Shown: piece after piece, positions 1 through 18,466 of the stretch
How the letters are laid out: each line of letters opens with the position of its first letter
How positions within the stretch are numbered: position 1 is the stretch's first letter
DNA from: a virus
IMG/VR virus record: IMGVR_UViG_3300025135_000591
Location: 1 to 20,407 of that record
Reading direction: 5' to 3' (one strand)
DNA length: 20,407 nt
Notes under the pieces: model-generated
Told to the model about the DNA's origin: nothing
What the model saw: the letters and a program-made list of their open reading frames with translations, nothing else
Databases searched by the model: none
Program-made: the position numbers and the translations under genes

Positions 1-699
1 ATTACAGGTTTATTTTTTGATTTTTATCATGATTTACTTATTGAACTTAGTAAACATAAAATTTATTATATAAAGTTACATTTTCATGGAGATTCTCTAA
101 TTACAAGAGCTAGGAATTATTTGTTATCAGAATATTATTATTATACTAAGATATACCCTTTAACACATTTGTTGTTTTTAGATTCTGATATATCTGTTGA
201 TCCTTATGCTGTTGCTCGTATGATATTAGATTCTATAGAAGAAAATATTGATGTTATTGGCGGATATGTGCCTATTAAAGAATTTATAAGTGATCGTAGT
301 AGGCAACCAATAGGATATAAGCATACATATAATATAGATCCTCCATGTTTTATTAATAGAGAAAAGAAGTTACAAAAAGTTGATTATTTGACTACTGGTT
401 TAATTGCTTTAAAAACTAATGTTGTTAATCAATTAGTAAAAGATGCAAAAATTAAAAAACAGTGGTATCACCATGAACTGCCAGAAGGTACTAAAAGAGT
501 ATTTGATATATTTAAATGTGATATTAGAAAGAAATCTATGGGTGACAAAGTGTTGCCTATTTATTTATCAGAAGATTGGTATTTATGTGAGTTGTTAAAA
601 GAATTAAATTTTGATGTTGTTGTGGATTTAAGAATGAATATAACACATAGAGGACATTATGATTACAAGTTCTTATCTGCAACTATAAAGGAGGAATAG
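1..699 (+). CDS. Glycosyltransferase, GT-A type, 5' end outside the window
   Basis: The reading frame is open from base 1, so the gene begins upstream; a TTG at 121 lies inside the conserved part and is not the start. The visible 232 residues have a GDSLITRARN segment (88-117) followed by a hydrophobic strand ending in DSD (bases 181-189). That is the usual layout of phage GT-A enzymes, where the arginine/asparagine stretch helps hold the nucleotide sugar and the DxD binds the metal. A later SEDWYLCE stretch looks like the acceptor-side acidic motif. The enzyme should transfer a sugar from a nucleotide sugar, but donor and acceptor cannot be read. It is the first of four transferase-like genes before the terminase and ends three bases before the next start, inside that gene's SD region. 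The family is fairly sure; the substrate is unknown. Confidence 0.75.
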   Translation: MTGLFFDFYHDLLIELSKHKIYYIKLHFHGDSLITRARNYLLSEYYYYTKIYPLTHLLFLDSDISVDPYAVARMILDSIEENIDVIGGYVPIKEFISDRSRQPIGYKHTYNIDPPCFINREKKLQKVDYLTTGLIALKTNVVNQLVKDAKIKKQWYHHELPEGTKRVFDIFKCDIRKKSMGDKVLPIYLSEDWYLCELLKELNFDVVVDLRMNITHRGHYDYKFLSATIKEE

Positions 700-1306: not shown

Positions 1307-1371
1307 GGACCAAGTTGAAGAAGAGTTCTCGCCACTACTTATATATGAGGGACCAAATATATTAGCCACTA
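1307..1371 (+). repeat. Two-part short direct repeat in the intergenic region
   Basis: The gap 1291-1423 holds two copies of an ordered pair of 7-mers. GGACCAA is at 1307-1313 and 1350-1356, each followed by GCCACTA at 1331-1337 and 1365-1371. The second GCCACTA is the left arm of the terminator hairpin. No gene, tRNA or clear promoter is visible in the rest of this gap. The repeats are directly visible; whether they mean anything is unknown. Confidence 0.4.
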
Positions 1372-1387
1372 TTATAGTGGCTTTTTT
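1364..1387 (+). terminator. Rho-independent terminator
   Basis: A perfect inverted repeat, AGCCACTA against TAGTGGCT, with a very short centre, is followed at once by a run of six T (1382-1387). It separates the first small-gene group from the GIY-YIG endonuclease and radical SAM genes, so those genes either have their own promoter or depend on read-through. Confidence 0.8.
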
Positions 1388-1423: not shown

Positions 1424-1804
1424 ATGATGGGTGTATATGAGATATATTGCAATAAGTCAGGAAAGCGATATATAGGATCATCTAAAGATATAGAACAGAG
1501 ATGGCAGTCACATTTAAGTGGTTTGCGGCGGAAGGCTCATCATAATTATTATTTACAAAGAGCCTATATTAGATATGGTGAAGATAATTTTGTTTTTACT
1601 ATTTTAGAAGAAGTTTATGATGAAGATTTGCTTTACGAAATTGAAGAAAAACATATAAAGAGATATAATTTTAATGATTTATTTAATGCTTTGCGGAAGC
1701 CTGGAGCTGTACCTAAGCGGAATAGCAGATGGATGCAGTATTGTGCGGGCGGAGGCGTTAAAAAAGAGAGTAAAAAGGAGGAATGGGCGTTTGGAGGAGA
1801 ATAA
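1424..1804 (+). CDS. GIY-YIG family endonuclease (probable free-standing homing endonuclease)
   Basis: The start is ATG 1424 (ATG 1427 also possible), eight bases after AAAAGGAG at 1408-1415. The 126-residue product opens with GVYEIY (residues 3-8) and RYIGSS (15-20), the two signature strands of the fold. R26 and H30 follow at the usual catalytic spacing. E75 is the likely metal-binding glutamate and N88 the likely late asparagine. Only about 35 residues follow the nuclease domain; they are basic and Gly/Lys-rich, and no recognisable DNA-binding repeat such as NUMOD is seen. It should nick or cut DNA and act as a selfish mobile gene, as in Seg-type phage enzymes. Its last codons carry the SD for the radical SAM gene and overlap it by 14 bases. 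No intron boundaries were recognised around it. Confidence 0.88.
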   Translation: MMGVYEIYCNKSGKRYIGSSKDIEQRWQSHLSGLRRKAHHNYYLQRAYIRYGEDNFVFTILEEVYDEDLLYEIEEKHIKRYNFNDLFNALRKPGAVPKRNSRWMQYCAGGGVKKESKKEEWAFGGE

Positions 1805-3026
1805 AAATATATTATTATTAACTTCGCCTGCTCCATTAAAATCAGGATTTTCTGTAAGAGAGAAAAGACCTCCTTTAGGAGTTGGGTATTTAATTAGTGT
1901 ATTAAGAAATAATAATTATAATGTATATTTTAATGATCAGTATTTACAAAAGAATGATATTTTGAATAGTCCATTTTTATTAAAACATAATATTGATGTA
2001 ATAGGTATTTATTCAAATACAGTATGTTTTCAGGGAACATTAGATTTATTAGCACAATTAAAATCACAAGATTGGAAGGGAAAAATTATTATAGGTGGAC
2101 CTCATACTTCTGTGGGAAGTGATATGTTTTCACAAGAAGTAGATTATATTGTAATTGGAGAAGGAGAAATTACATTATTAGATATTTTACAAGGCAAAGT
2201 AGATGAAAGAATTGTACAAGGGAAAAAAGTAGAGAATTTAGATACATTACCAAGATTGCCTTGGGAAGATTTTATGAGTTTACCATATCATAAAAATAGC
2301 AAATGGTTAAAAAGTAAAAAAAATATTGTTACTTTAAATACTAGTCGTGGATGTCCTTTTAATTGTACTTTTTGTTCTGTAAAATCAATATGGGGCAGAA
2401 AATATCGTTGTATGAGCGCTAATAGGATTATAGATGAAATTGAATTTTTAATTAAAAAGTATTCTATTGATGGTATTTATTTTAGAGAAGATCATTTTAC
2501 TTTTAATAAACAACGCACAATTGATTTTTGTGAATTATTATTAAAAAAGAATATAAATATTGATTGGTTGTGTGAAACTAGAGTGGATGATTTAGATGAT
2601 TTAGAGTATCAAAAATTATTAGCAAAAGCAGGTTGTAAAGTGTTTTATATTGGTGTAGAATCTGGTAGTCCTAGAATGTTAAAGTTTTATAAAAAAGGAG
2701 AAACAGTAGAACAATTTATTCAAGCTTTTGATAATGCTAAAAAAGCAGGTATTACAACATATGCAAGTCTAATAACAGGTATTCCAGGTGAGACAGAAGA
2801 AGATAAACAATTAACTAAAGTTTTTTTAAAAAGAATACAACCTGATTTCATTACTAATAATTATTATGTTGGTATGCCTGGTAGTGAAATATATAATTAT
2901 CTTTATGATAATAAACTATATGAATATATGGATTGTAATCGTATCTTATATCCTAAAGGATTTTGGGAGAATAATAAACAGCACAAAGATAAGCTAGTAT
3001 ATAATTTAAAGGATATTGAGGGTTAA
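1791..3026 (+). CDS. Radical SAM enzyme with N-terminal B12-binding-like domain
   Basis: The start chosen is TTG 1791, because AAGGAGG at 1775-1781 lies nine bases upstream and protein-like sequence begins there; an in-frame ATG at 1674 would bury the start in the endonuclease gene. The 411-residue product has an N-terminal Rossmann-type domain (about 1-135) with PPLGVGYL, GGPHTS and VDYIVIGEGE, as in B12-binding radical SAM proteins, but without the DxHxxG cobalt-ligand motif. The radical SAM core carries C188, C192 and C195 (CPFNCTFC), which bind the 4Fe-4S cluster that cleaves S-adenosylmethionine. A GVESGS segment and a GIPGET segment fit the SAM-binding barrel. Relatives methylate or rearrange unreactive carbons in sugars, lipids, cofactors or peptides. 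Here it lies among glycosyltransferases, so a sugar or glycan substrate is the best guess. Family sure; reaction unknown. Confidence 0.92.
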   Translation: MEENKNILLLTSPAPLKSGFSVREKRPPLGVGYLISVLRNNNYNVYFNDQYLQKNDILNSPFLLKHNIDVIGIYSNTVCFQGTLDLLAQLKSQDWKGKIIIGGPHTSVGSDMFSQEVDYIVIGEGEITLLDILQGKVDERIVQGKKVENLDTLPRLPWEDFMSLPYHKNSKWLKSKKNIVTLNTSRGCPFNCTFCSVKSIWGRKYRCMSANRIIDEIEFLIKKYSIDGIYFREDHFTFNKQRTIDFCELLLKKNINIDWLCETRVDDLDDLEYQKLLAKAGCKVFYIGVESGSPRMLKFYKKGETVEQFIQAFDNAKKAGITTYASLITGIPGETEEDKQLTKVFLKRIQPDFITNNYYVGMPGSEIYNYLYDNKLYEYMDCNRILYPKGFWENNKQHKDKLVYNLKDIEG

Positions 3027-3028
3027 TT

Positions 3029-3748
3029 ATGCGAAGATTTAATATTTTAATGACTAATTATAATAATGGTGAATATATAGAGACAGCAATTTTATCAATA
3101 ATCAAGCAAACATTTAAAGATTGGTACTTAATTATTGTTGATGATGCTTCTACAGATAATTCTTGTTTAATTATTGAAAAATATGTTAAATTATATCCTG
3201 ATAAAATTAAGTTTATTCGCAATATTGATAATAAAGGGTATAGTTTAAGTTTACGCGAAGGTGTTAAATATGTTAGTACAGATATATTTGGTATAGTAGA
3301 TAGTGATGATGCAATTACTATAGATGCTTTGGAAATTATGTACAAATCTCATATGCAACATCCTAGCATTGGTTTGATTTATTCTCAATTCATGTATTGT
3401 GATGACAGTTTATCTCCCGTAGATATTGGTTATTGTGGTAATATTCCCACAGGAAAGACGAGTTTGGAAGAAGGATTAGTATCTCATTTTAAAACATTCA
3501 AACTAAAATATTATTTATTAACAGATGGCTTCCATAAAGAAAATCAAAAGGCAATTGATAAGGATATTGTTTATAAGATGGAAGAAGTTTCTTCTATTTT
3601 ATTTGTTAATCGTATTTTATATATGTATAGATGTCATGAAAAGGGTATTTCACAAGGGAAAAATATTAAAAAAGCATTAAAAGATAAAAAAAAGGCTAAA
3701 TGGGAAGCGAGAGAAAGGAGGAAAAGGCGTAATAGTGAAAGAACTTAG
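3029..3748 (+). CDS. Glycosyltransferase family 2
   Basis: The start ATG 3029 follows GAGGG at 3018-3022, two bases after the radical SAM stop. The 239-residue product has the GT2 pattern: an N-terminal strand with NYNNGEYIETAILSI, VDDAS with D38/D39 for the nucleotide, and DSDD at 91-94 for the metal and sugar phosphate. A later DKDIVYKMEE and LYMYRCHEKGIS resemble the acceptor-side half of GT2 enzymes. It should be a soluble inverting transferase; no membrane segment is seen. The last 25 residues are very basic, and their codons include AAGGAGG at 3715-3721, which serves the next gene; the two genes overlap by 14 bases. Donor and acceptor are unknown. Confidence 0.88.
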   Translation: MRRFNILMTNYNNGEYIETAILSIIKQTFKDWYLIIVDDASTDNSCLIIEKYVKLYPDKIKFIRNIDNKGYSLSLREGVKYVSTDIFGIVDSDDAITIDALEIMYKSHMQHPSIGLIYSQFMYCDDSLSPVDIGYCGNIPTGKTSLEEGLVSHFKTFKLKYYLLTDGFHKENQKAIDKDIVYKMEEVSSILFVNRILYMYRCHEKGISQGKNIKKALKDKKKAKWEARERRKRRNSERT

Positions 3749-4457
3749 TATTATTTTACCTATTAGTAAAATTTTAGATAGTTACAGGGAGAAGAATTTT
3801 TATTTTGTATATAATTATTATTTAAATCATTTTCCTGGAGCCCAAATTATTATAGGAAAAGATGATGGTAATTATGCTTTTTTTTGTAAATCTAGAGCTA
3901 TTAATAACGCGGCAAAAAGCGTAATGAAAAGCTATATATTAATTGCTGATATTGATATTGTACCTTCTTTTCTTAATATAAGAGAAGGTATTAATCTATT
4001 GAAATTACAAAATTATGCATGGATTATTCCTTATAATAAAATTTATAAATTTCATAAACAAGATTCTCAGAAGATTATTGAGGGCACAGATATTAATTCT
4101 TTAAATTTAAATGCTGTTGGTTCTTTGGTCCGTACTAATCCTGTAACTGGTGGTTTGCAATTAACAACAAAACGAAATTTTGATTATGTGAATGGATATG
4201 ATGAAAGATTTATTGGATGGGGAGATGAAGATATTTGTTTTTGTTACTCCCTTAAAACTTTATGTGGAGAAGGTAAAATTGTAACAGGTGATATTTATCA
4301 CTTATGGCATCCACGACAAGCAAGTTTTGTTTCTCGTAAATCTTCTGAAGTTGAAAAAAATAAAAATTTTCAGTTAAGACAAGAATATAAAAAGATAGTT
4401 GGTAATAAATCGGCTATGATGGAGATGAGGTGTTTACATGGAAATACAAAAAGTTGA
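3735..4457 (+). CDS. Glycosyltransferase with GT2 N-half and galactosyltransferase-like C-half
   Basis: The start is GTG 3735, with a purine-rich SD region at 3715-3727. The 240-residue product has a metal-binding DID at 72-74 (IADIDIV). A C-terminal block then runs from GGLQL (139) through FDYVNGYDERFIGWGDED (149-166). This GG...GYDE...GWGDED block is the hallmark of the Glyco_transf_7C/galactosyltransferase half found in chondroitin-polymerase-like enzymes and many phage transferases, where the late acidic residues act as catalytic base. It overlaps both neighbours (14 and 20 bases), so the three genes are probably translated together. It likely adds a hexose or hexosamine to a growing glycan; the sugar is not known. 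Confidence 0.85.
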   Translation: MKELSIILPISKILDSYREKNFYFVYNYYLNHFPGAQIIIGKDDGNYAFFCKSRAINNAAKSVMKSYILIADIDIVPSFLNIREGINLLKLQNYAWIIPYNKIYKFHKQDSQKIIEGTDINSLNLNAVGSLVRTNPVTGGLQLTTKRNFDYVNGYDERFIGWGDEDICFCYSLKTLCGEGKIVTGDIYHLWHPRQASFVSRKSSEVEKNKNFQLRQEYKKIVGNKSAMMEMRCLHGNTKS

Positions 4458-5559
4458 TTTTTATGCACAACAACCTCATTATTTTGATCATTTATTAAAT
4501 ATATGGAATACTTTACCAGAAGAATACAAAGGTAATTATTATATACCTCCCTATTTTTTACATAACAAGGAATTTGATTTTATTAAATATGCTAAAATTC
4601 GGGGTTGTGATGTACAACGACTTTATTCTAATCAAAAATTTCCTTTATTAGTTGTAGCAGGAGTTAGTCAAAGATATATAGGGAATACTCCTTTAATTTT
4701 AATTAATCATGGTGCAGGTCAAAGTTATATTATGAAGAATGGCAAAAGACATAGTAGCTACGCGGGAGGAGAAGACCGACATAATGTTGTATTATTTATT
4801 GAGCCTAATGATTACGCAAGTAATTTAGATGCTCAAAGGTATCCTGCTTCGCGACAAATAATATCTGGTTGTTGTAAATTAGATATTTGGCACAAAGCTA
4901 AATTAAATAGAGAAATTAAAGAGAGAAGTAAAATTCCTGTAGTAGCTATTAGTTTTCATTGGGATTGTTATGTTGTTCCAGAAACTCGTAGTACTTGGTC
5001 TTATTATAAAAGTATTCTGCCAATGTTAGCATATAATAATATTATCAATAAATGGAAAGTATTGGGACATGGTCACCCTGGTATATTATCGACTTTAGTA
5101 CCAGAATATAAAAAACATGGGATAGAGATTGTAGAAAGTTTTGATGAAGTTATGGAAAGAGCGGATATATACATATGTGATCATATGTCTACTTTATATG
5201 AATTTGCTAGTACTGATAGACCTGTTGTTGTTTTAAATGCCCCATGGTATAGAAAAGATATAGAACATGGGTTAAGATATTGGCAGTATGCAGATGTTGG
5301 TATTAATGTAGATTATCCTAACCATTTAGAGAAAAGTATTGATGTTGCTTTAGAAGATACTTTAGAACAAAAAATGAAAAGAGAAAGAGCAGTAGCTGCA
5401 GTTTATAAATATCGAGATGGAATGTGTACAGAAAGAGCTGTAGAAGGGATAATAAATTATTTAGAAGAACCAAAACCTGAAAATATTATTAATAAGCGGA
5501 GTAATACTTTAATAGAAAAAACTATAAGAAGACAAGAAACTTGGTATAATACGAGTTAA
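4438..5559 (+). CDS. CDP-glycerol glycerophosphotransferase-like protein (GT-B fold)
   Basis: The start ATG 4438 lies seven bases after GAGG at 4427-4430, inside the preceding gene. The 373-residue product shows the motifs of the teichoic-acid-type glycerophosphotransferase family: INHGAGQSY near residue 89, a G-x-x-K-x-D segment (GCCKLD, 144-149), a GHGHP loop at 210-214, and YICDHMSTLYEFA (245-257) followed by DRPVVVLN. In known members the histidines of the HG and HxH loops and the DxxSxxxE segment bind the CDP-alcohol or acceptor phosphate. Relatives include other nucleotide-sugar GT-B enzymes, so the donor may be CDP-glycerol, CDP-ribitol or a sugar nucleotide. It is the last gene of the glycan module. 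A role in adding a polyol phosphate to a glycan, or in altering host wall polymer, is inference. Confidence 0.8.
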   Translation: MEIQKVDFYAQQPHYFDHLLNIWNTLPEEYKGNYYIPPYFLHNKEFDFIKYAKIRGCDVQRLYSNQKFPLLVVAGVSQRYIGNTPLILINHGAGQSYIMKNGKRHSSYAGGEDRHNVVLFIEPNDYASNLDAQRYPASRQIISGCCKLDIWHKAKLNREIKERSKIPVVAISFHWDCYVVPETRSTWSYYKSILPMLAYNNIINKWKVLGHGHPGILSTLVPEYKKHGIEIVESFDEVMERADIYICDHMSTLYEFASTDRPVVVLNAPWYRKDIEHGLRYWQYADVGINVDYPNHLEKSIDVALEDTLEQKMKRERAVAAVYKYRDGMCTERAVEGIINYLEEPKPENIINKRSNTLIEKTIRRQETWYNTS

Positions 5560-5573
5560 AGGAGGAAATTTTA

Positions 5574-6620
5574 GTGGTTAAAAAAGCTGATAAGACAAAA
5601 GTTACAGAAGAACCTAATGCTATAATTAAAGTTAATAAAAAAATGACAGAAGAGCTAATGAATATTATAAAACGCTATAATGAAATGTTTAAAGAAGTAC
5701 CAGAATCTGCAAGAGTATGCGGACATTGTAAAAAAAATAAAACTTTAACTCATTATTTCTCCGCAAGAAATCCTTTGATGCACAATAGAAAAATTAGTAT
5801 TTGTAAAGAATGTGTAGAAGAACAAATACATTTTGAAGAATATGGAGAAGCTCAATATTTTTTAACTTTAATGGGATTACCGTTTGTTGAAGATGCTTGG
5901 GAAAGATGTTTACGAGATCCTGCTCCCATCGGACAGTATGTGAAATTAATGAATTTGGGTCAGTATGCTAGCTTGGAAGCCGCGACTATAAATAGAATAA
6001 AATCGTACAGTGAAGCTTTTGATCATGACCCTTATCAAGCTCAATTAGATACTTTAACCGATGACGAGAAAGGATACTTGAAAGCTAAATGGGGAGATCA
6101 TTATACTTTTATAGATTGTTTAAAATTAGAAGAATATGCAGAACAAATGATGGAAGATTATGATATTGATACTAGATCTCATCAGGATTATTTACAAAAA
6201 ATTGCGAAAGTGTCTTTAATTATAGATGGTATGATAAGAGATGGAGATTATGATGGAGTTAAAAAAATGAGTAAAACTTTAGATGATTTAATGAAATCCG
6301 CCGGTTTTGCTCAGAGTACTAAGTCTAAGGACTCAAAAACAGATAGTGGCTTTAATGCTTTTAGTGTTCTTTTTGAGATGGCAGAAAAAAAAGGATTTAT
6401 TCCTAAATATGCTACTGATGAACCTAAAGACATTGTTGATACTACTATTAAGAATTTACAAGCTTGGACTTATCAATTAATTGCAAAAGAACCTGATTTA
6501 CAAACTTTATTAGAAAACGCGGCAAAACGCGTTATAGAACAAGAGAAAAAAGAAAAAGATGAAAAGAAGGAATACGCGGAATTAGAGGACATTGACTATG
6601 AATATAATGAGAAAACATAG
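5574..6620 (+). CDS. Zinc-ribbon protein in the small-terminase position
   Basis: The start is GTG 5574, eight bases after AAAGGAGG at 5558-5565. The 348-residue product has a basic N-terminus, then a treble-clef or ribbon-like zinc site formed by C49/C52 (CGHC) and C77/C80 (CKEC). A mostly helical acidic body and a Lys/Glu-rich C-terminal coil follow. The CxxC pair about 25 residues apart with a phenylalanine between is common in phage proteins directly upstream of the large terminase. It overlaps the large terminase gene by 23 bases, which supports a joint role in recognising and packaging phage DNA. It is much longer than ordinary small terminases and lacks an obvious helix-turn-helix, so the role is inferred from position. 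Confidence 0.6.
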   Translation: MVKKADKTKVTEEPNAIIKVNKKMTEELMNIIKRYNEMFKEVPESARVCGHCKKNKTLTHYFSARNPLMHNRKISICKECVEEQIHFEEYGEAQYFLTLMGLPFVEDAWERCLRDPAPIGQYVKLMNLGQYASLEAATINRIKSYSEAFDHDPYQAQLDTLTDDEKGYLKAKWGDHYTFIDCLKLEEYAEQMMEDYDIDTRSHQDYLQKIAKVSLIIDGMIRDGDYDGVKKMSKTLDDLMKSAGFAQSTKSKDSKTDSGFNAFSVLFEMAEKKGFIPKYATDEPKDIVDTTIKNLQAWTYQLIAKEPDLQTLLENAAKRVIEQEKKEKDEKKEYAELEDIDYEYNEKT

Positions 6621-8292
6621 GGCAGAAAAACGCAAGCAAGAAAAACTTATTACGCATGATATGGTTGAAAAGAACTTAGATAAATTAATTCCTTATTTAT
6701 CATTTTTTAGAGCTTACCCAGACAAGTTTATAGATACTATTTCTGCACCTGATTGTCCTTTTAAATTCTTTTTTTATCAAAGAATTTTTTTAAGAGTTGT
6801 TATGCGCTTTAAATATGTTTTTGTTACTTTTAATAGAGCTTTTGCTAAGTCGTTTTTATCTGTTTTAGCGCTATATTTAAAATGTATGTTCTACCCAGGA
6901 ATTAAATTATTTATAACTGCTGGAGGAAAAGAACAAGCTACAGATATCGCCAAAGCTAAATTAGATGAAATATGGGATTGGTGGCCATGTTTAAGAAATG
7001 AAATGGCAAAATATGAAAAAAGTAAAGATTATATTAAAGTAATTTTTAAGAATGGTAGTCATTTAGATATTATGCCAGCAAAAGAAACTACAAGAGGACA
7101 ACGGAGACATGGAGGTCTTTTAGATGAGGTTATTATGATTGATGGAGAGAAATTAAATCGTTTTGTAATTCCTACCATGAACGTTGACAGAGTAGCACGG
7201 TGCGGAGGCATAGATCCAAATGAGAATCATAAGAGTCAAATATATGTTACAACGGCTGGCCATAAATCTTCTTTTGCATATGAAAAAATGATGCAATTAT
7301 TAGTTTGGATGTTTGTAAGAAAAAATGCTTTTGTATGGGGTGGAGATTATCGTATTCCTATGATGCATGGTTTATTAAGTGAAGATTTTGTAGATGAATT
7401 AAAAGAAGATGGAACTTATAATGAAATGGATTTCAGTAGAGAATATGAAAGTCTTTGGAGTGGTGCAGCGCAAGATGCATTTTTTGATCCAGAACAATTT
7501 GATAGATATAGAGTACTTGAAAAACCTCATAATAGATATATTCCTTCTGATGGAGCAGAAAATTTTTATATTATGGGAGTTGACGTAGCTAGATTAAAAG
7601 CACAAACAGTAGTGCAAATTATAAAAGTAGTAAGAAGGCCGGCAGGATATTATAAATCTTTAGTAAATACATTTGTTTATGAAAATAGACATTTTGTAGA
7701 ACAAGCAATAGATATTAAACGCAAAGCGATGGATTTTAATGTTAAACAAGTTGTTATTGACGGCAGTGGATTAGGAGTTGGTCTAATAGATTTTTTAGTT
7801 ATTGAAAATCAAGATACTTTAACAGAAAGTATTTATCCTCCTTTCTCTGTTACGAATGATAGTAATTATGATCAATTTGTAAAAGCAGAATCTTTGCCTT
7901 TACTTCATGTTATAAAGCCAAATGATGAATTAAACAGTCAAATATATGTGAATTGTTTGTCTCAATTTAATAGTGGTAAAATTAAGTTATTAGTAGATGA
8001 AAAAGTAGCAAAAACTAAACTATTGAATACGGCAGAAGGCAGACAAATGGCATCAGAACAAAAAGCATATTATCTTATGCCTTTTACTTATACTTCTATT
8101 TTGAAACAAGAAATGATGAATTTGCGGCAAAAGCACGATGGAAAATACTTAAGATTAGAAGAAGTTCAGAAAAAAGGCAAAGATAAATTTAGTGCTTTTG
8201 TATATGCTTTATGGTATATAAAAATTTTAGAAGATAAATTAATACAAGAAAAGAAGAAAAGAAAATTATCAGATTTTCTTATGTATAATTAA
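6598..8292 (+). CDS. terL: Terminase large subunit (packaging ATPase and nuclease)
   Basis: ATG 6598 is chosen because AGAGG at 6584-6588 lies nine bases upstream; TTG 6592 is too close. The 564-residue product has an N-terminal ATPase and a C-terminal RNase H-like nuclease. The Walker A is an unusual FNRAFAKSF (78-86, with K84/S85), and the Walker B is LLDE with D176 and catalytic E177. Nuclease acids are likely D329 (MGVDVAR), D388 (VVIDGSGLG) and D529 (KDKFSAFVYALWY). It should dock on the portal, pump DNA into the prohead with ATP, and cut the concatemer at the start and end of packaging. Its stop is 18 bases from the apparent portal start. The length fits the family. Confidence 0.93.
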   Translation: MNIMRKHRAEKRKQEKLITHDMVEKNLDKLIPYLSFFRAYPDKFIDTISAPDCPFKFFFYQRIFLRVVMRFKYVFVTFNRAFAKSFLSVLALYLKCMFYPGIKLFITAGGKEQATDIAKAKLDEIWDWWPCLRNEMAKYEKSKDYIKVIFKNGSHLDIMPAKETTRGQRRHGGLLDEVIMIDGEKLNRFVIPTMNVDRVARCGGIDPNENHKSQIYVTTAGHKSSFAYEKMMQLLVWMFVRKNAFVWGGDYRIPMMHGLLSEDFVDELKEDGTYNEMDFSREYESLWSGAAQDAFFDPEQFDRYRVLEKPHNRYIPSDGAENFYIMGVDVARLKAQTVVQIIKVVRRPAGYYKSLVNTFVYENRHFVEQAIDIKRKAMDFNVKQVVIDGSGLGVGLIDFLVIENQDTLTESIYPPFSVTNDSNYDQFVKAESLPLLHVIKPNDELNSQIYVNCLSQFNSGKIKLLVDEKVAKTKLLNTAEGRQMASEQKAYYLMPFTYTSILKQEMMNLRQKHDGKYLRLEEVQKKGKDKFSAFVYALWYIKILEDKLIQEKKKRKLSDFLMYN

Positions 8293-11886: not shown

Positions 11887-12915
11887 ATGGACGCAAAATT
11901 AAAAGATCTGAAACAATTAGCGTTGCAAGTGGCAAAGAAGCAGCCACCAACAAATTTTACATTAGAACAAGCAGAGGATGCGCTAAGAAAAGAATTAAGA
12001 ACTTTAGCGCCTGACTATAATGCTTTTAGACGCAATAAATTAACTATTTATGAGTTAATGCAAGAAATTACCGATGAAATTCTTCCAAATAGAGTAATTG
12101 AAGCTATGGGAAGATTTGCTGAAGTTAAAAACTTCAGACAAGGACAGAAGCCTATTTTTAAGAAAAAACTTGGAAAACAAAGAGGTAAATCTTTCGTTAC
12201 TCAAGTTGGTTTAAGTGGTATCTATGAGACTTTCAGACTAGATTCAACTTACTTAGAAGTTCCAACCAAAGCTTATGGTGGAGCAGCAGTAATTGAATTT
12301 GAAAGATTTTTAGATGGATTAGAAAGCTTAGATGAACTAATGGTTATTATTCAAGAAGGGCTTGAAGATGCATTTTATCGTGAAGTACAAAATGCTCTAA
12401 TTGCTACAATTGAAAATATGCCTGTTCCTAATGTTTATACTGGTTCTACTTTCTCCGGTTCACAAATGACTAATTTAATCAATGTTGCAAAAGCTTACGG
12501 AGGAAATGCAAATATCTTTTGTACTTCTGAGTTTGCTTCTACAATTACTACTTCTGGTGGTTTTTATGGAGACAATGGTTGGAGTACAATAGAACAAATG
12601 GAATTAAGAAATCAAGGATTTATTGGTAAATATAAAGGAGCTAATGTTCTAACATTACCTCAAAGCTTTGTAGATGAAACTAATACAGAGCAAGTTATCA
12701 ATCCTGGGTATGCTTATATTATTCCAACTGGCGGAGAAGGCGATGAAAAAATCGTTAAGATCGCTATGGAAGGTAATACTATTGTAGACGATTTCAAAAA
12801 TGCTGATAGAAGCATGGAAATTCAAGTTTATAAGAAGTTCGGTGTTGCCGTACTGAATACAAATTATTACTGCATTTATCGTAATACTGCATTAGATCCA
12901 GAAAGCGGATCGTAA
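11887..12915 (+). CDS. Major capsid protein (HK97-fold)
   Basis: The ATG lies seven bases after AAGGAGG at 11873-11879. The 342-residue product starts with a helical N-terminal arm (about 1-90). It continues with the features of HK97-fold capsid proteins of this class: a strand-turn region KSFVTQVGLSG, a long spine-like helix around SLDELMVIIQEGLEDAFYRE, and an A-domain-like part with IFCTSEFA, GWSTIEQMELRNQGFIGKYKGANVLTLP and a final EIQVYKKFGVAVL. The stretch of helix, surface loop and GxYkGa-nVltlP is typical of capsid proteins near their C-terminus. Codons are visibly enriched in C-ending forms compared with early genes. A strong terminator follows directly, which would also protect the transcript's 3' end. 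Gene order and sequence agree. Confidence 0.9.
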   Translation: MDAKLKDLKQLALQVAKKQPPTNFTLEQAEDALRKELRTLAPDYNAFRRNKLTIYELMQEITDEILPNRVIEAMGRFAEVKNFRQGQKPIFKKKLGKQRGKSFVTQVGLSGIYETFRLDSTYLEVPTKAYGGAAVIEFERFLDGLESLDELMVIIQEGLEDAFYREVQNALIATIENMPVPNVYTGSTFSGSQMTNLINVAKAYGGNANIFCTSEFASTITTSGGFYGDNGWSTIEQMELRNQGFIGKYKGANVLTLPQSFVDETNTEQVINPGYAYIIPTGGEGDEKIVKIAMEGNTIVDDFKNADRSMEIQVYKKFGVAVLNTNYYCIYRNTALDPESGS

Positions 12916-16731: not shown

Positions 16732-17508
16732 ATGGCAGAAGCAAAATTTGGTGTAAAGGAAGTTATGAACGTTACTTTCTATAGCCTAACAGATTATAAG
16801 CCAGTTTTATATGTAGATACTCTAAAATTATCTAACTTAGAAAATACCGCAGAAGAAAGTCATGCTAGAGGTGGTTGGGGAAACCCTATTCTTTTAACTT
16901 GGGACTATAACAGAGAAGCAACATTTACTGTTCAGGATGCTTTAATTTCTTTTGATGGTCTAGCGTTGATGACAGGAAATCCAGTTACAGCAACTAGTGA
17001 AATCGTTTATAAGAGAGAAATGTTTACAGGTCAAGAGATTAGCGATGGTAGTGGTAGTGTTACATTGTCTGAAACTCCCGTTGATCCTGATACAGGATTA
17101 GCATCAGACACTAGAGTATTTGTTTATGATGCTGCTGGTGGTATTGGTGGAGATTCGGTAGGTAGTGTAAGTGGAACAACTGTTAGTGGATTAAGTGCCT
17201 ATACTAGTGGCGTTGTAGCTTACTATCCTTACAAAAACGAAGGTTCAGCTTTACAAGTTGTTACAATTACTTCTGATAACTTCCCTGGTTACTACAAAAT
17301 CGTTGGAGATACTCTTATTAGAAACGCTAATACTGGCGTTGATGAGCCTTTCCAATTAATTGTAGAGCGTGCTAAAGTACAACCTGGATTTACTTTAACT
17401 ATGCAAGCTGAAGGAGATCCATCTGTATTTGATATGAACTTAACAGTTATGAAGCCTACAGACAAAACAACTATGATTAAGTTAATTAAATATACAGAAG
17501 GTAGCTAA
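16732..17508 (+). CDS. Major tail tube protein
   Basis: The ATG follows AAGGAGG and a purine-rich leader. The 258-residue product is strand-rich, Gly/Thr/Ser-rich and has the layout of tail tube proteins: VMNVTFYSLTDYKPVLYVDT, RGGWGNPILLTWDYNREATFTVQDALIS, then ALMTGNP, and a C-terminal GYYKIVGDTLI with alternating strands. The middle (about 105-180) is a Gly/Ser/Val-rich insert that may form a surface domain on the tube. Codons are enriched in C-ending forms (AAC, TAC, TTC), as in the capsid gene, fitting an abundant virion protein. A strong hairpin terminator follows. A divergent second copy is encoded about 220 bases downstream. Confidence 0.85.
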   Translation: MAEAKFGVKEVMNVTFYSLTDYKPVLYVDTLKLSNLENTAEESHARGGWGNPILLTWDYNREATFTVQDALISFDGLALMTGNPVTATSEIVYKREMFTGQEISDGSGSVTLSETPVDPDTGLASDTRVFVYDAAGGIGGDSVGSVSGTTVSGLSAYTSGVVAYYPYKNEGSALQVVTITSDNFPGYYKIVGDTLIRNANTGVDEPFQLIVERAKVQPGFTLTMQAEGDPSVFDMNLTVMKPTDKTTMIKLIKYTEGS

Positions 17509-17725: not shown

Positions 17726-18466
17726 ATGGAAGAATATCTTATACAAGGTTATTCACAAATAAGTATTTTAGAGTGTGTAACAAAAAAACCTGTATTATAT
17801 TTCCCTGAAGCTCATGTAGCTAATATACAAGTAGAAAGTAATAGTCGTATTGGTTCTGGAGGTAAACAAAATTTAGATTTAATTGGTTGGAACACTGAAG
17901 GTGACGGACAATTTGTAATACTTTCTCCTATTTTTTCTATGAAATTTTTGGAAATTGCTGCAGGTAGTGAAATAAAAGAAAGATCGCATATTTTTATGGA
18001 AATGGAAACGCAGATGATAGAAAATAATGAAATCATCTTAGTGAATATTCCTGCCGAAAATAAAGAAATTAAAGTTTATCAGTTAAATAGTAGTGGTAAA
18101 TTAATTTTAGATGAAATTGATATTGCTAATATAAATGAAAACACTCTTGAATTGAATGGGAATCATAGTGGCTGGGCATTAATATTTTATTATATAGAAG
18201 ATACTGTGGAATTGTTAGATATAGGTAAATTTGTAAATAAAGGATATTATAGTGTTATTGGTAATTTTGAAATTTATAATAATGTATCAGCTGAAAAAGA
18301 AATTTTAAGATTTGAATTTCCCAAAGTTTTAATTAATAATAGCTTTAATGTTAAATTAATGAATAATAGGAATCCAGAAGAAGTTTATATGTTACAATGT
18401 CAAGCATTATTAGAAGAAGAAATTAATAAATCTTTATTAAGAATAATTAGGAGAGTAGAAGGATAA
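17726..18466 (+). CDS. Second tail-tube-like protein (divergent paralogue)
   Basis: ATG 17726 follows GAGGAGGT at 17711-17718. The 246-residue product aligns by eye to the major tube protein at both ends. KPVLYF (residues 21-26) matches KPVLYV (23-28) with the same strand pattern around it, FLEIAAGSEI (74-83) matches LALMTGNPV (77-85), and GYYSVIGNFEIYNN (173-186) matches GYYKIVGDTLIRNA (186-199); both end in a helix plus EG. The Gly/Ser-rich insert is replaced by a different segment. Codon use is ordinary, unlike the major tube gene, and there is no purine leader, so it is probably made in small amount. It may be a tube initiator, terminal ring or minor tube protein. Terminators on both sides make it a unit of its own. 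Confidence 0.7.
   Translation: MEEYLIQGYSQISILECVTKKPVLYFPEAHVANIQVESNSRIGSGGKQNLDLIGWNTEGDGQFVILSPIFSMKFLEIAAGSEIKERSHIFMEMETQMIENNEIILVNIPAENKEIKVYQLNSSGKLILDEIDIANINENTLELNGNHSGWALIFYYIEDTVELLDIGKFVNKGYYSVIGNFEIYNNVSAEKEILRFEFPKVLINNSFNVKLMNNRNPEEVYMLQCQALLEEEINKSLLRIIRRVEG

Follow-up and report, generated by a model that had tools for sequence, protein, structure and literature searches.

Introduction

Glycosylation of the phage particle is a recent finding that has been reported for a few mycobacteriophages. According to summaries in later papers, mycobacteriophage glycans are attached to the C-termini of the capsid and tail-tube subunits (Freeman 2023, as cited in PMC12619734; also PMC11600133 and PMC11256854), and the virions of Che8, Corndog, and Myrna are glycosylated, with gp110 and gp38 being essential (Freeman 2023, as cited in PMC12363180). 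Here, we describe a gene cassette that resembles those of Che8 and Corndog in part and is located on a tailed-phage fragment of 20,407 bases, the entire IMG/VR virus record IMGVR_UViG_3300025135_000591 (hereafter the window). The cassette encodes a radical SAM enzyme with an N-terminal B12-binding-like domain (rSAM), a GT-A glycosyltransferase of family 2 (GT2), a second GT-A enzyme similar to GT7C/GalNAc transferases (GT7), and a TagF/TarL-like GT-B transferase, which we named GlyP together with its relatives.

The initial annotation of the window had placed a B12-type rSAM, two GT-A glycosyltransferases, and a CDP-glycerol-transferase-like gene just before the terminase genes, and had left the virion, the DNA, and the host wall as targets of the pathway. 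These genes proved to be real and coding, at the positions listed in Table 1, and the evidence picks the virion among the three targets, as a Gly-Ser tag on the capsid and tail-tube proteins tracks the cassette. We consider it very likely that the phage uses the cassette to modify the C-terminal Ser of its capsid and tail-tube proteins, with GlyP as the candidate for recognizing this acceptor.

A C-terminal Gly-Ser tag on the capsid and tail-tube proteins

Exactly two products of the window end in Gly-Ser (GS), namely the capsid protein (ESGS) and the tail-tube protein (TEGS). The same is true of L006, a close relative of the window phage with a 71% identical large terminase (TerL), in which these proteins end in SAGS and DAGS, respectively. 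Because single-sequence scans of viral sequences with rSAM and with GlyP gave no relatives, alignments were used for the family searches, and an eight-member GlyP alignment matched approximately 80 viral contigs, which were reduced at 70% identity to 73 loci. GS ends were found in 29 of 38 capsid proteins of the GlyP loci (36 of the 38 end in Ser), and a second GS-ending open reading frame (ORF) was present in 22 of the 29 loci with a GS capsid. No such end occurred in the portal (0/37), TerL (0/32), tape measure (0/23), or GT7 (0/21) proteins of these loci; as background, the internal frequency of the GS dipeptide was 0.6%, and control contigs gave 1/183. Since the capsid proteins of the GlyP loci belong to several unrelated families, common descent fails to explain the GS end.

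We then compared relatives that do not carry the cassette, which came from phages of Enterococcus, Clostridioides, Brevibacillus, Bacillus, Staphylococcus, Alicyclobacillus, and Geobacillus and from gut phages. A GS end was absent from all 10 of their capsid homologues whose C-terminus was intact and from all eight tube homologues. The association was also examined in a single capsid family whose collection did not depend on the GlyP neighborhood; there, GlyP or a phrog_2170 glycosyltransferase was present in 22 of 25 contigs with a Ser-ending capsid and in 0 of the 25 other contigs. Capsids ending in TAGS, TAAS, or THQS together with phrog_2170 glycosyltransferases and no GlyP were observed in L117, L125-L127, L131, L141, L151, L152, and L155, and the phrog_2170 enzymes are apparently another enzymatic solution for the same tag.

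The mycobacteriophages follow a similar pattern. The capsid protein encoded by Che8 has the end NKTGS and the major tail (tube) protein the end YSDGS, and none of the other Che8 virion proteins that were read ends in GS. Firecracker, a member of the Corndog cluster, has a capsid ending in LVGS and a tail protein ending in GDS; the capsid and tail proteins of TM4 and Bxb1 have no Ser end.

GlyP is also linked to virion genes by position. A packaging, head, or tail gene was located within 5 kb of GlyP in 57 of the 73 loci, and all 173 detected virion genes were on the same strand as GlyP. Of the 28 loci showing both head genes and a tape measure gene, 26 had GlyP between them, and the other two had it before TerL, as in the window.

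Several observations weigh against the virion C-termini as the site of modification. A Fisher test on the capsid-family counts looked decisive, but the trait changed only three to four times on the tree of that family (two contrasts concordant, none discordant; sign test not significant), so that we rejected the association as proof and take it as support only. Approximately one-fifth of the contigs without a visible GlyP in that family end in GS, mostly those with another transferase or short fragments. In addition, 14 GlyP loci had no recognized virion gene; some of them are short contigs, and L065, L079, and L092 seem to be true exceptions to the virion linkage. Finally, proteins commonly have GS as a flexible end, and the tag could reflect the structure or processing of the capsid and tube and be unrelated to the cassette, which would then act on other virion sites such as fibers. 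We regard this explanation as quite unlikely: exactly GS is common to unrelated capsid families and never found on portals or terminases, the homologues from phages without the cassette stop without it, and Che8, for which C-terminal glycans are reported in the summaries cited above, has it on both proteins.

The host wall and phage DNA as possible alternative targets

The transferases may instead decorate teichoic acid or another host surface glycan, thereby blocking superinfection or changing receptors. The similarity of GlyP to the teichoic acid polymerases TagF and TarL would fit such a role, as would the Gram-positive hosts of the nearest terminase relatives in GenBank (the nearest to the window TerL among GenBank phages being that of Geobacillus virus E3, 54%), and some phage glycosyltransferases are known to alter the O-antigen or envelope of the host (PMC7029224). 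However, a wall target does not predict a GS tag on the capsid and tube, nor would it explain why GlyP stays with the head-tail module in unrelated phages. GlyP relatives are moreover present on a contig assigned to a Bacteroidetes metagenome-assembled genome (MAG), where wall teichoic acid is not expected. Modification of the host wall is an unlikely function of the cassette.

The other candidate target is DNA, on the bases of which a sugar or phospho-polyol would be built. Radical SAM enzymes and glycosyltransferases are found in other DNA modification pathways, which would be in line with the gene content of the window. A precedent for a PF04464 enzyme is gene 151 of Bacillus phage SP-15, for which hypermodification of this type has been proposed (PMC5977210). 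However, a gene of the thymidylate synthase family, the expected source of a hydroxymethylpyrimidine, was present in only one of 50 GlyP records, many of which are fragments, and the cassette is located among virion genes and goes along with the GS tag. We consider DNA hypermodification highly improbable.

A conserved transferase trio and a variable radical SAM enzyme

In L006, the order GT2-GT7-GlyP before the terminase is the same as in the window, with identities of 53% (GT2), 39% (GT7), and 64% (GlyP). At the position of the B12 rSAM, L006 has a radical SAM enzyme of the SPASM type, preceded by a class I methyltransferase. No such cassette was found before the terminase in Geobacillus virus E3 or Alicyclobacillus phage KKP_3916. 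Among the GlyP records examined, the radical SAM family occurred in only two of 50, one of which is L006, and the B12 rSAM stood beside GlyP only in the window phage. As L006 keeps the trio but swaps the radical SAM class, and the E3 and KKP_3916 phages have no cassette, the transferase trio is, as judged from gene content, a conserved unit and the B12 enzyme an optional, lineage-specific addition. A conserved set of all four genes was rejected because of this swap in L006 and because most GlyP records have no such radical SAM gene.

GT7 of the window family stands beside GlyP in 22 of the 73 loci, and methyltransferases are found in other loci. In L026, GT7 and GlyP are fused into one ORF of 706 residues (5317-7437). 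The dedicated pathway proposed in the initial annotation is supported for the transferases, whose order is kept in L006, but not for rSAM as an integral member.

The window rSAM has the PF02310 and PF04055 architecture, and the CxxxCxxC motif is present as GCPFNCTFC. Its start is a TTG behind AAGGAGG at 1791, and a longer start at ATG 1674 is unlikely. Against NCBIfam, the best matches were ApyD, PhpK, BchE, and HpnJ, all far under their cut-offs, so that no characterized subfamily was reached. This enzyme is possibly, although doubtfully, a passenger beside the transferases, with a peptide or host metabolism as its target, which would be compatible with virion modification by the trio. Its occurrence beside GlyP in the window phage only, among the records examined, the different radical SAM class in L006, and the peptide maturases among its best sub-threshold matches favor such a role. 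On the other hand, rSAM is the first gene of the run, separated from GT2 by only 2 nucleotides (nt), and the corresponding position in L006 is also occupied by a radical SAM gene.

The GlyP family

In GenBank phages, GlyP was found only in Virus Rctr41k by tblastn and further searches. The AlphaFold2 model of GlyP (mean predicted local distance difference test score 82.8) has a GT-B fold, with matches to TagF (Z 21.6), TarL (Z 20.9), and UDP-GlcNAc 2-epimerases (Z 22). Because these values are nearly equal, we rejected the fold as a discriminator of donor class between an alditol transferase and a UDP-GlcNAc 2-epimerase. Sequence profiles of GlyP match TarL and Cps3D with borderline E-values and weakly favor kinship with them. 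The HP and D-x-S-S motifs of GlyP align with TarL, in an alignment that does not include the first catalytic His. Among 46 GlyP members, His91, His174, His211, His213, Asp248, and Ser251 are invariant.

Neighboring genes of GlyP were also recorded. A cytidylyltransferase-like gene (CTP_transf_like; NCBIfam score between TagD and HldE) was present in nine of the 73 loci. Such a TagD/HldE-like nucleotidyltransferase gene adjoins GlyP in L030 (7355-7834) and also in L032, L033, L043, L047, L053, L054, L075, L083, and L098. Phage TagD genes have elsewhere been assigned to cryoprotection or the wall (PMC11515562, PMC6918029), and virion modification is an alternative role for them. In L009 (5740-7515), GlyP has a C-terminal glycosyltransferase domain of the Nucleotid_trans family. 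Sub-threshold relatives of RXYLT1/exostosin adjoin GlyP in L013 (6368-7915) and L014 (7189-8970). RXYLT1 transfers xylose to the ribitol phosphate of dystroglycan, and by analogy, the RXYLT1-like neighbor is suggestive of a partner for an alditol-phosphate transferase. L015 (Bacteroidetes MAG contig JAAYLC010000133.1) encodes a GlyP 45% identical to that of the window beside head-tail genes, together with a 153-residue protein ending in NTGSGS; this contig suggests that the GlyP system also occurs in phages of Gram-negative hosts.

Organization of the window

The features of the window are listed in Table 1.

Table 1. Positions of the cassette genes, tagged virion genes, and neighboring features in the window
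Feature	Position	Strand	Evidence and remarks
Truncated GT-A-like ORF, possible further transferase	1-699	+	phrog_1574, E 9e-14 (function unknown); Anp1, E 0.16; cut by contig start
Terminator-like hairpin between the genes at 1-1290 and the cassette	1364-1382	+	8 bp stem, then T-run
GIY-YIG homing endonuclease gene	1424-1804		PF01541, 4e-16; directly 5' of rSAM gene
rSAM with N-terminal B12-binding-like domain	1791-3026	+	PF04055, 98.6 bits, 5.9e-28; PF02310, 52.3 bits, 6.3e-14
GT2, GT-A glycosyltransferase family 2	3029-3748	+	PF00535, 90.8 bits, 1.2e-25
GT7, GT7C/GalNAc-transferase-like GT-A	3735-4457	+	PF02709, 34.1 bits; phrog_1721, E 1.7e-19
GlyP, TagF/TarL-like GT-B transferase	4438-5559	+	PF04464, 32.8 bits (cut-off 22.1)
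Small-terminase-like gene, 3' of cassette	5574-6620	+	phrog_3314, 2e-53; precedes TerL as in relatives
TerL	6592-8292	+	
Major capsid protein, C-terminus LDPESGS	11887-12915	+	GS codons 12907-12912; homologue so annotated in Bacillus phage PJN02
Tail-tube protein, C-terminus IKYTEGS	16732-17508	+	GS codons 17500-17505; PJN02 homologue annotated as tail tube; phrog_2729, 3.5e-63

The cassette genes had been described as overlapping, which is correct for GT2/GT7 (14 nt) and GT7/GlyP (20 nt); rSAM and GT2 are separated by a gap of 2 nt, and GlyP and the small-terminase-like gene by one of 14 nt. The GIY-YIG gene overlaps the start of the rSAM gene by 14 nt. A further glycosyltransferase had been assigned to positions 1-699. 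The ORF is present and matches phrog_1574, but it is truncated, and its similarity to a glycosyltransferase is weak. Because the terminator-like hairpin and the GIY-YIG gene lie between it and the cassette, it is probably in a separate transcript. Terminator-like sites of this kind were no more frequent than in shuffled sequences. For positions 1290-1390, a group I intron or another known RNA was also considered and rejected, since Rfam gave no match and the folding was ordinary; the region resembles a terminator only.

Two further observations concern the window as a whole. A tail-tube homologue at 17726-18466, 3' of the tube gene (tube profile E 1.6e-67), ends in VEG and has no GS tag. The word ACGCGG occurs eight times in this AT-rich phage (0.37 expected), at 3907, 4760, 6517, 6574, 10357(-), 13595(-), 17518, and 17597, and four times in L006 (0.14 expected).

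Proposed mechanism and significance

We propose that, during late expression, the Gly-Ser ends of the major capsid and tail-tube proteins would be recognized by GlyP, which would place the first residue on the hydroxyl of the terminal serine, presumably from a CDP-alditol or a sugar nucleotide. GT7 and GT2 would extend this residue into a small glycan or polyol-phosphate, and rSAM (in relatives, a methyltransferase or SPASM enzyme) may tailor the sugar through reactions such as C-methylation, deoxygenation, or epimerization. GlyP is our candidate for the tag-recognizing enzyme because it stands where gp110 stands in Che8. More tentatively, GlyP may represent a widespread and previously undescribed class of teichoic-acid-polymerase relatives that use a CDP donor to place an alditol phosphate or sugar phosphate on the C-terminal Ser of the capsid and tube, giving a "teichoylated" particle, with a Gly-Ser that is portable across unrelated capsid families and a product tailored here by a cobalamin rSAM.

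Virion glycosylation is now linked to a sequence rule, a C-terminal Ser, usually Gly-Ser, on the capsid and tube, and to a second enzyme class, for which we count at least 73 distinct loci, nearly all of them from uncultured phages. The rule needs only sequence data and predicts the phages whose particles are decorated, a question relevant to immune recognition and phage therapy. It also suggests a two-residue, genetically portable tag for enzymatic C-terminal modification, and phage-borne radical SAM enzymes gain a testable substrate.

Comparison with known systems

The SP-15 cluster resembles the window in combining glycosyltransferases with a CDP-glycerol glycerophosphotransferase, the counterpart of the TagF/TarL-like GlyP, but it is proposed to act on DNA (PMC5977210), and tblastn of GenBank phages with GlyP retrieved only Virus Rctr41k. 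PhpK, HpnJ, BchE, and ApyD, which are radical SAM methyltransferases with a B12-binding domain and their relatives, share the domain architecture and cluster motif of the window rSAM, which nevertheless scores far below the curated cut-off of each subfamily. With TagF, TarL, and Cps3D (PF04464), GlyP shares the GT-B fold and a Pfam score above the cut-off, and apparently also the HP and D-x-S-S motifs. It differs from them in its length of approximately 370 residues without the polymerase N-terminal part, in its linkage to virion genes, in having no confident PHROGs or NCBIfam model, and in that the TagD/HldE-like nucleotidyltransferase is adjacent in just the nine loci mentioned above and not in the window.

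The mycobacteriophage cassettes are the closest parallel. By phmmer, the window GT7 has homologues in Che8 gp109 (1.5e-12) and Firecracker gp35 (1.1e-11), the latter belonging to phrog_1721 (5e-110), and the hidden Markov model of the window GT2 family matched Che8 gp108 (2.8e-7). Che8 gp110 and Firecracker gp36, which are of the phrog_854 type, had no phmmer match among the ORFs of the window, itself a fragment, and the mycobacteriophage-type transferase of L056 had no match in GenBank phages. The order in Che8, GT2-like gp108, GT7 gp109, and gp110, parallels that of the window, and both phages have (G)S at the ends of their capsid and tube proteins. The cassette of the Corndog cluster is situated between the portal and protease genes together with a methyltransferase and includes a phrog_1721/GT7 enzyme as in the window. 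The window differs in that a TagF/TarL-like GT-B transferase takes the position of gp110/gp38 (phrog_854) and the B12 rSAM is added, and its phage is of a different lineage that probably infects Gram-positive bacteria. By analogy, the GlyP system would work like the virion glycosylation cassettes of Che8 and Corndog, differing from them in the acceptor-recognizing enzyme and the rSAM step.

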